This document shows, piece after piece, positions 25,868 through 28,909 of a stretch of 50,908 nucleotides of DNA. How positions within the stretch are numbered: the first letter of the stretch is position 1; each line of letters starts with the position of its first letter. The notes below the pieces were generated by a model that saw only the letters and a list, made by a program, of their open reading frames with translations, searched no databases and was not told the DNA's origin. The stretch is from Thermodesulfobacteriota bacterium (GTDB lineage: Bacteria > Desulfobacterota > Thermodesulfobacteria > Thermodesulfobacteriales > Thermodesulfobacteriaceae), in assembly GCA_030550555.1 (NCBI GenBank), contig JAUQPD010000007.1, positions 81,563 through 132,470 of the forward strand, in the 5' to 3' direction. The position numbers were made by a program, and so were the translations under genes.

Positions 25868-25905
25868 AAGTTATCTGGATTTAAAGTTCTTCCCTGGGGG
25901 GTCCT

Positions 25906-27705
25906 ATGCTGAAAATTAACTATGACAAGGATAAATTTCGGCTTATCGAGCCAACTGAGCCGGAATTATATAAAGATTTTTTTCCCTATGTTGAGCCACC
26001 AAGAATTTTTTTTGATGGGAAATACATACCTCCTCAGCCTGCATCGGAGTTCTATATAACTGACACGACCTTTAGAGATGGTCAACAGGCAAGGACTCCT
26101 TACACTCCTGAACAGATCGAAACACTGTATAAATTTCTTCACAAACTCAGTGGTCCCAAGGGGATAATACGTCAGACCGAGTTTTTTCTCTACACCCAGA
26201 GGGACCGAGAAGCCCTAGAGAGATGCCTTTCTTTAGGATACAAATATCCTGAAATCACGGGTTGGATAAGGGCAAACAGAGAAGATCTAAAGCTTGTTAA
26301 AGAAATGGGTCTGAAAGAGACAGGCATGCTCACCTCTTGTTCTGACTATCACATATACTTAAAGCTTAAGAAAACTAGAAAGCAGGTACTAGAGGACTAC
26401 CTTGCAGTTGTCAAAGAGGCCTTATCATACGGTATAAGACCAAGGTGTCATTTTGAAGATGTTACCAGAGCGGACATTTACGGTTTTGTTATACCCTTTG
26501 CAATAGAGCTAATGAAACTGCGTGAGGAGAGTGGAATTGATATCAAGATTAGGCTTTGTGATACTCTTGGTGTTGCGGTGCCCTATCCCGAAGCAAGTCT
26601 TCCTATAAGTGTTCCAAAACTAATTAGAGCTCTTATTGATGAGGCTGGGGTTCCAGGGGAGCTTTTGGAATGGCATGGTCACAACGACTACTATCGAGCT
26701 GTAATTAATGCTACTTATGCCTGGTTGTATGGCTGTGCCTATGTAAATACTTCATTACTTGGAATAGGTGAGAGAACTGGAAACACCCCTCTCGAAGCTA
26801 TGGTCTTTGAATACATTGCACTCAAAGGCACAAACGATGGCATGGATACGACAATAATTACCGATATAGTCAATTACTACAAAGAACATCTCCACGAAAA
26901 AATTCCACCTAGACAACCCTTTGTTGGAGAAGACTTTAATGCAACGAGAGCTGGAATCCACATTGATGGTCTCATTAAGAATGAAGAAATTTATAATTCC
27001 TTTGACTCGATAAGAATCCTAAAGAGACCTATACAGATAATTATCACTGATAAGAGTGGAACTGCTGGGATAGCCTACTGGATCAATACACATTTTAATC
27101 TTACTGGTGAGAGCGCAATTGATAAAAGGCATCCTGGAGTTATTAAAATTTATAAGAAAATTCAAGAATTATATGAAAAAGGACGTATCACCTCTATATC
27201 TAATGAAGAAATGCTTGCCCTCACAAGAAAATACTTACCTGAGCTATTTGAATCAGAATTAGATCATCTTAGAAAATTTGCTCATAAACTGCTCATACAG
27301 TTTATAGAAGATCTTGTCCAAGAACAGGATCTAATTACTATGAATGTTGAGGCTATTAAGCCTATCCTCAAGAGATTTCTATCTGAACATCCCTATGTTC
27401 AATTCATCTACATTGTTGATATTGAAGGAAAACCCATTATTGGTTTAACAGATGACGTAGAATTTCGTAAAAAATTTGACGAACTTTTAACGACTGAGAC
27501 CTTTGAAAATAGAGATTGGTTTATTAATCCCATGAAGACTGGAAAAATTTATATATCTCCATTCTATACTTCGAAAATGACCAATAAACTTTGTATTACT
27601 GTTTCTGCCCCTATAAGAAATGCAGATGATGAAATTATAGCTATACTCGGAATGGATATTCGCTTTGAGGACCTTGTAAAGATGGAACGAGAAAATGCTT
27701 TATAG
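25906..27705 (+). CDS. Re-citrate synthase-like HMGL enzyme with C-terminal Cache-like domain
   Basis: Residues about 45-445 form an HMGL/isopropylmalate-synthase-type TIM barrel with divalent-metal residues D53 and R57-D58 (TDTTFRDGQQAR), E255 and H257/H259 (EWHGHND), and GIGERTGNTPLEA. Segments such as GIIRQTEFFLY, YKYPEITGWIRA, GMLTSCSDYHIYLKLKKTRK and RAGIHIDGLIKNEEIYN resemble the Re-citrate synthase group known from Clostridium kluyveri and sulfate reducers, so condensation of acetyl-CoA with oxaloacetate is the best guess. Homocitrate or citramalate synthase is the alternative. Residues about 485-595 look like a Cache/PDC sensor module (FIYIVDIEGKPIIGL, RDWFINPMKTGKIYISPFY, CITVSAPIRNADDEIIAILG), with no membrane helix anywhere. 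Length is 599, well beyond a barrel enzyme alone. It overlaps tolB by 11 bp. Confidence 0.8.
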   Translation: MLKINYDKDKFRLIEPTEPELYKDFFPYVEPPRIFFDGKYIPPQPASEFYITDTTFRDGQQARTPYTPEQIETLYKFLHKLSGPKGIIRQTEFFLYTQRDREALERCLSLGYKYPEITGWIRANREDLKLVKEMGLKETGMLTSCSDYHIYLKLKKTRKQVLEDYLAVVKEALSYGIRPRCHFEDVTRADIYGFVIPFAIELMKLREESGIDIKIRLCDTLGVAVPYPEASLPISVPKLIRALIDEAGVPGELLEWHGHNDYYRAVINATYAWLYGCAYVNTSLLGIGERTGNTPLEAMVFEYIALKGTNDGMDTTIITDIVNYYKEHLHEKIPPRQPFVGEDFNATRAGIHIDGLIKNEEIYNSFDSIRILKRPIQIIITDKSGTAGIAYWINTHFNLTGESAIDKRHPGVIKIYKKIQELYEKGRITSISNEEMLALTRKYLPELFESELDHLRKFAHKLLIQFIEDLVQEQDLITMNVEAIKPILKRFLSEHPYVQFIYIVDIEGKPIIGLTDDVEFRKKFDELLTTETFENRDWFINPMKTGKIYISPFYTSKMTNKLCITVSAPIRNADDEIIAILGMDIRFEDLVKMERENAL

Positions 27706-28909
27706 AATACTTTTTTTTCTATTATTTCTCCTACTTCCTCTGAAACTCCATCCAGAGCAATCAAATGAAGTTCCATTAATAACTGTTACGCCTCAGGCAT
27801 ATACCAAGACAGTTGTTAGGATTCCGAATATTGAAGGCGACTCAAGGGGTGAGCTCTCATCCCTTGTGAGATCTCTCATAAACTTACATCTTTTTTGTGT
27901 TGCCCTTGAAGAACCTCCTCTTCCTGGTCTTAGAGATAGAGCACATTTTCTTCGCGGTAGTCTGTCTCTGAAAGATGGTCTATACCATTTTCAAGGAGAA
28001 CTCAATTCTCCTCATGAAGGCAAGGCTAAGATGATCCGTCTTGAGGCAACTTCAAAAGAACTTTTAGCTTACGCCCTTGCAGATCTTATAGTTGAGGAGA
28101 TATCTCCCTATAAGGGCCAAAGTAAAACCCGCATAGCCTTTGTCAAAAGAGATAAGGCTGGAGATAATCTCTATGTGATGGATTTCTCAAGAAAAAATCT
28201 CAAAAAAATCAAAAGTGCAGAATTGATACTTTTTCCCAAGTTTTCTCCAAGCGGTAAAAAGCTTGCCTATGTTTCCTACAATGGCAAAGACTTCTTTTTA
28301 GAGATATACGAATTTGCAAAAGGAGATAGTAAAGTTTTTAGGATACCAGGTCTTAGCTCTACTCCTGTTTGGATGCCTAATGAGAGGGAACTCATTCTTA
28401 CCTTAGGTAGAGATGGCGAAATTAACCTCTTTGTTTTTAACCTTGACAGAGCAGAACTTAGTGCCATCACTAATGGAAGAGGTATCCATCAGGCTGGTAG
28501 TGTGAGCCCTGATGGAAAACTTGTTGCCTTCGTTGGTGACCGGACTGGAAGACCCCATATATATATTTTAAACTTGGAAAACAGAAAAATTGAACGAATC
28601 TCTACTGAAACAAACTACCATACTTCACCTCGATTTTCGCCTAAGGGAGGAATTCTCATATATCTTTCTCAACGAGCTGGAAAAAACGAATTGATTCTCT
28701 ATAACTTCAACAAAAGAGAGAAAAAGAGGCTTGTATTACCCTATTCACTAAGTGATCCAGCCTTTTCACCGAGTGGCGACTATCTGATTTTTACTGGAAA
28801 GACAAGGAATGGAACTGGGCTTTACCTTTTGCATCTGGACTCACTGATAGTTTACCCCTATATGCCTGCTGGTAATCTCCACTATCCTGATTGGGGAAGA
28901 TTTTATTAG
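27695..28909 (+). CDS. tolB: TolB-like periplasmic beta-propeller protein
   Basis: Periplasmic component of the Tol-Pal envelope system. The 404-residue precursor has a signal peptide (about 1-20, YRILFFLLFLLLPL), an N-terminal TolB domain (about 25-140) and WD40-like/PD40 blades (about 145-400) marked by FPKFSPSGKKLAYVS, GSVSPDGKLVAFVG, SPRFSPKGGILIYLS and PAFSPSGDYLIFTG. The length matches TolB. No other tol/pal genes are in view. It begins inside the last codons of the citrate-synthase-like gene, so expression is coupled to a cytosolic enzyme, an odd pairing. Confidence 0.88.
   Translation: MLYRILFFLLFLLLPLKLHPEQSNEVPLITVTPQAYTKTVVRIPNIEGDSRGELSSLVRSLINLHLFCVALEEPPLPGLRDRAHFLRGSLSLKDGLYHFQGELNSPHEGKAKMIRLEATSKELLAYALADLIVEEISPYKGQSKTRIAFVKRDKAGDNLYVMDFSRKNLKKIKSAELILFPKFSPSGKKLAYVSYNGKDFFLEIYEFAKGDSKVFRIPGLSSTPVWMPNERELILTLGRDGEINLFVFNLDRAELSAITNGRGIHQAGSVSPDGKLVAFVGDRTGRPHIYILNLENRKIERISTETNYHTSPRFSPKGGILIYLSQRAGKNELILYNFNKREKKRLVLPYSLSDPAFSPSGDYLIFTGKTRNGTGLYLLHLDSLIVYPYMPAGNLHYPDWGRFY

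Follow-up and report, generated by a model that had tools for sequence, protein, structure and literature searches.

A putative Re-citrate synthase with a cytosolic C-terminal Cache domain in a Thermodesulfobacteriota bacterium and its relatives

According to the survey that redefined the Cache superfamily, Cache domains had been identified exclusively in proteins with signaling outputs and are mostly extracellular, with the YkuI_C and Diacid_rec Cache families described as principally intracellular (PMC4822843). In the chemoreceptor PctA, an arginine of the pocket contacts the carboxyl group of the ligand (PMC10104139). For the kinase KinD, PMC3831638 reports a wild type that binds pyruvate and a mutant of the pocket arginine, numbered R95 there, that binds acetate. 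On the enzymatic side, a Re-type citrate synthase homologue is found in Thermodesulfatator indicus, where labeling data point to oxidative synthesis of 2-oxoglutarate (PMC12743299); this species probably belongs to a class related to that of the organism studied here, which, from its genome size and gene content, may be a Thermodesulfobacteriaceae-like metabolizer of sulfur or sulfate. No publication on a fusion of Re-citrate synthase and Cache domain was found in the literature searched. The architecture is visible to public Pfam models, however, and database annotation may already show it.

Gene architecture and predicted fold

The window, that is, the whole stretch of 50,908 nucleotides from a Thermodesulfobacteriota bacterium that was analyzed, contains a complete gene at 25906..27705 on the forward strand (+), which is read from an ATG start as a single open frame of 599 codons and encodes a Re-citrate-synthase-type enzyme followed by a C-terminal Cache domain. 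A possible ribosome-binding site, GGGGGG, lies just 5' of the start codon (25896..25901, +), and the reverse strand of 25906-27705 is interrupted by numerous stop codons. Upstream are threonine synthase and other genes, none with an evident role in citrate metabolism. The next gene (27695..28909, +) encodes a TolB-like beta-propeller protein, which is not thought to be part of the system; its 11-base overlap with the end of the synthase gene (27695-27705) suggests translational coupling of unrelated functions.

Residues 49-322 (26050..26871, +) match the HMGL-like TIM-barrel family (PF00682, E 2e-32, above the curated cut-off), and the predicted full chain resembles homocitrate and isopropylmalate synthases in fold searches. 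The preliminary description had proposed a condensing enzyme resembling Re-citrate synthase, with all metal residues in place, and both points were supported. R57, D58, H257, H259, and N293 are invariant in an alignment of 49 relatives. The R57-D58 pair (26074..26079, +) belongs to the motif DTTFRDGQQ, whose catalytic and metal-binding role we assume by analogy with LeuA and homocitrate synthase. The metal-binding motif H257-G-H259 occupies 26674..26682 (+), and N293 of GERTGN, in the metal-site region, occupies 26782..26784 (+).

The barrel is followed by a post-barrel region of residues 323-450 (26872..27255, +), about the end of which tailless relatives stop in alignments, and then by the tail. 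Two Pfam families match the latter above their cut-offs: dCache_1 at residues 467-590 (E 7.7e-15, 55.5 bits versus 45) and MCP-like_PDC_1 at residues 484-590 (E 2e-14, 54.4 versus 27). The Cache signal is independent of the enzyme part, because the isolated tail still yields a match at E 5.7e-16. Searched by sequence against the PDB, the tail matched Cache domains of chemoreceptors and kinases, including Tlp3 (E 3e-7) and KinD (E 0.003), and the family profile of the tail improved these values to 1e-9 and 2e-8, respectively.

Structure prediction with AlphaFold, based on 49 aligned natural sequences, gave a mean pLDDT of 90 and a pTM of 0.74 for the full chain, at which value the relative placement of the enzyme and Cache domains is uncertain; the tail alone reached a pLDDT of 91 and a pTM of 0.86. 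In a Foldseek comparison of the tail with the PDB, KinD came first, with seven chains comprising the wild type, the pyruvate complex, and the R131A mutant, followed by WalK, Tlp3, CitA, DctB, and the cytosolic protein YkuI. The predicted fold is thus a Cache domain and not another fold. The initial proposal of half a Cache domain at residues 485-595 was right about the domain and too narrow about its extent: in the model, the tail is a complete single PDC/Cache fold at residues 451-598 (27256..27699, +), whose long N-terminal helix, residues 451-471 (27256..27318, +), links it to the enzyme.

The highest hydropathy over 19 residues is 0.94, and no membrane helix was found in the protein, as had been noted from the outset. 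The Cache domain is therefore neither extracytoplasmic nor placed between membrane helices, but cytosolic, and its output partner in the Pfam architecture is the HMGL-like enzyme rather than a signaling domain. The absence of a membrane helix also rules out a periplasmic enzyme. The E-value of the isolated tail, its predicted structure, and the 43 relatives rule out a spurious Cache match, and the recurrence of the architecture in open frames of about 150 genomes rules out a fusion created by frameshift or misassembly.

Distribution of the tail and its ligand pocket

The survey covered three phyla: that of the window, Bacillota_A (L094, the phylum of Hornefia), and Chloroflexota (L055). A first sample of 148 genomes from the window's phylum yielded 69 full-length copies with the tail, at 50-80% identity, four partial copies, all containing the tail, and two copies without it. 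The second sample, which overlaps the first, contained the enzyme in 194 of 395 genomes at E <= 1e-100; among the ~155 copies listed, only three (G034, G718, and G016) are clearly tailless, with frames of 455-489 aa, and a further short copy (G784) lies at a contig end. About half of the genomes sampled from the phylum thus have a Cache domain on an enzyme of core metabolism.

The enzyme was also detected in 32 of 299 Bacillota_A genomes and 17 of 201 Chloroflexota genomes. Every full-length match in these two phyla ends between query positions 424 and 458, and the full-length clostridial and chloroflexal copies are about 450-460 aa long, none with a tail. When a tailless enzyme served as the query, the best 80 named matches were clostridial, other Bacillota, or chloroflexal. 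At E <= 1e-3, Pfam detects a Cache domain in 43/43 tailed members and 0/6 tailless ones. Given where the clostridial and chloroflexal copies end, the tail is an addition specific to one lineage. The tails form one clade (97/93), and the pattern fits best with one acquisition followed by inheritance with few losses or replacements. G034 is closer to clostridial forms (65-74% identity) than to tailed ones and G718 is 71% identical to G034, which suggests gene replacement.

Being near-universal in the branch of the window's phylum and absent from the clostridial and chloroflexal branches, the tail is not a general dimerization domain of the enzyme family, an option that the preliminary description had raised. 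A narrower alternative is that, within the phylum, the Cache fold was kept as a dimerization or heat-stabilizing module without a ligand. This would agree with the almost constant retention of the tail and with the frequent dimerization of Cache and PAS domains (PMC8694187). We nevertheless regard it as unlikely. Heat alone is an improbable explanation for a tail that numerous relatives throughout the phylum possess, and the pocket positions R536, W538, S556, T565, S567, and D584 are invariant against a mean column identity of 53% over the whole tail.

These residues belong to a set of 11 invariant positions among 154 in 41 tail sequences (P496, Q499, G508, R536, W538, G546, S556, T559, T565, S567, and D584), and four of them (R536, W538, S556, and D584) coincide with four of the six positions of the PctA ligand motif, an overlap with p about 2e-4 in the 41 tails. 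R536-D-W538 (27511..27519, +) would contribute the carboxylate-binding residues: R536 and W538 are both invariant, and the KinD residue aligned with R536 is the arginine mutated in R131A. The KinD segment Y-S-S-R-I-T-G corresponds in the alignment to Y-T-S-x-x-T of the tails. D584 (27655..27657, +) occupies the position of PctA D173, and S556 (27571..27573, +) that of PctA D146, which in PctA contacts the amino group. Because the latter position is Ser in 41/41 tails, the canonical amino-acid motif of PctA is incomplete here, while the remaining PctA pocket positions (R, W, Y, and D) are largely retained. The ligand that we would guess from these residues is a carboxylate of small size, which may be a 2-oxo or hydroxy acid. 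The conservation of the pocket favors a working sensor.

Identity of the condensing enzyme

Citrate is very likely the product of the enzyme, and the Re stereochemistry is putative. A profile search for Si-citrate synthase (PF00285), which gave a match in 13/14 control genomes, found none in the window's genome. The genome does have a frame of 654 aa that belongs to the aconitase family. Across the 148 genomes of the phylum, 66 have only the Re-type enzyme, 56 only the Si-type, nine both, and 17 neither, a near-exclusivity with a Fisher p of 5e-16 when relatedness among the 148 genomes is ignored. In some of the 17 genomes with neither type, long frames that may represent ATP-citrate lyase match part of PF00285 weakly.

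The core could instead be another condensing enzyme, such as a homocitrate or citramalate synthase, so that the sensor would control a different branch of metabolism. We consider this improbable. Profiles of the related synthases do match, weakly, but all scores of these NCBIfam equivalogs (homocitrate, isopropylmalate) are far below the cut-off, and the same genome encodes separate LeuA-like and citramalate-synthase-like paralogues in addition to lacking a detectable second citrate synthase. Furthermore, genes of the TCA type adjoin tailless orthologues from the same phylum: malate dehydrogenase and fumarase in one case (L033:1474-4784) and an NAD-isocitrate-dehydrogenase-like gene in the other (L034:446-2871). 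Both paralogues carry the LeuA_dimer domain (PF08502), which Pfam does not detect in the 599-aa synthase; the idea that the tail stands in place of the LeuA regulatory domain is consistent with this arrangement.

Proposed control of citrate synthesis and comparison with known systems

We propose, with moderate confidence, that this protein is a citrate synthase to which a cytosolic Cache domain has been added, and that binding of a carboxylate controls citrate synthesis allosterically in place of LeuA_dimer. The protein would be the citrate synthase of the cell, a Re-type enzyme with its origin in the homocitrate/isopropylmalate synthase family, and would supply the oxidative branch from citrate to glutamate. 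The single Cache domain, added after a complete enzyme, would use R536 and W538 to hold a small carboxylate of the cell interior, while S556, T559, T565, and D584 would form the remainder of the pocket lining. The effect of binding would then pass through helix 451-471 to the post-barrel region and alter activity or assembly. Because a receptor-type sensor is present in nearly all copies of the phylum and missing in two other phyla, the synthase is probably switched by a small acid in the cell. Tailless enzymes outside the phylum work without a Cache domain, and such control is thus not universal.

The relatives of the tail include other intracellular Cache domains. A profile search at E <= 1 found no second Cache domain of this kind in the window's genome. 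In the phylum, the proteins other than the enzyme that match best resemble chemoreceptors and carry the Cache domain C-terminally; most lack membrane helices, and one (G065, L185) comes from the window's own family. Six MCP-like proteins (L185, L184, L172, and L181-L183) have no membrane helices and terminate in a cytosolic Cache domain that bears the pocket signature of the tail, namely R-x-W-[FY], Y-x-S-x-x-T, C-x-T-x-S-x-P, and G-x-D. In the clostridial phylum, the signature marks the C-terminal end of other receptors and also occurs within CheW-like proteins, whose CheW domain is split into two halves by the Cache domain (L210, L212, and L213). Since soluble receptors and CheW-like proteins share the signature, the tail is one member of a broader collection of intracellular Cache domains; how these group among themselves is only weakly resolved in the tree. 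An EAL-domain protein (L174) with a C-terminal cytosolic YkuI-type Cache domain shows part of the signature.

These relatives on soluble chemoreceptors and inside CheW-like proteins could suggest that the tail docks to signaling proteins, and C563, found in 35/41 tails and most intracellular Cache relatives, that it is a thiol or redox sensor rather than an allosteric carboxylate sensor, but we give this the least credence of the alternatives, as the genome has no second Cache domain of this kind at E <= 1 and C563 is not invariant while the carboxylate-site residues are.

As a speculative extension of the allosteric reading, one that we ourselves find rather doubtful, the intracellular Cache domains might constitute a distinct family that responds, on chemotaxis proteins and on citrate synthase alike, to a common metabolite of the cytosol, for example pyruvate or a different small 2-oxo or hydroxy acid. 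If true, a single kind of sensor would steer swimming as well as carbon entry into the citrate branch across much of the phylum, and, to our knowledge, no Cache domain had previously been shown to exert direct control over an enzyme of central metabolism. Allosteric control by the tail would itself mean direct control of citrate and glutamate synthesis in anaerobes of the phylum. Tailed and tailless enzymes, with ~55-60% core identity, offer natural controls.

Compared with known systems, the enzyme appears to have the same kind of HMGL/LeuA-like core as the Re-citrate synthases of the Clostridium kluyveri and Syntrophus aciditrophicus type (EC 2.3.3.3), and the identity to uncharacterized tailless clostridial and chloroflexal relatives extends over the full length of the core; however, copies outside the phylum stop at the end of that core, whereas the window's enzyme adds a Cache domain. 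LeuA and (R)-citramalate synthase, both represented in the same genome, pair a related barrel with a C-terminal allosteric domain, LeuA_dimer, in the place of which the window's enzyme has an unrelated sensor domain.

For the tail itself, KinD of Bacillus subtilis (PDB 4jgo and 4jgp) is the best fold match and shares the pocket arginine and Y-[ST]-S-x-x-T, but it consists of two Cache modules outside the cell, attached to a membrane kinase, whereas the tail is a single cytosolic Cache on a soluble enzyme. The amino-acid-sensing dCache_1 chemoreceptors PctA and Tlp3 share R-x-W-[FY] and the final D with the tail, and differ from it in the residue at the D146 position as well as in domain number and location. 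YkuI (EAL + YkuI_C) and the C-terminal cytosolic Cache domains of chemoreceptors are similar in layout, as there, too, a soluble protein ends in a cytosolic Cache; the partners in those cases are signaling proteins, whereas the partner of the tail is a central metabolic enzyme.
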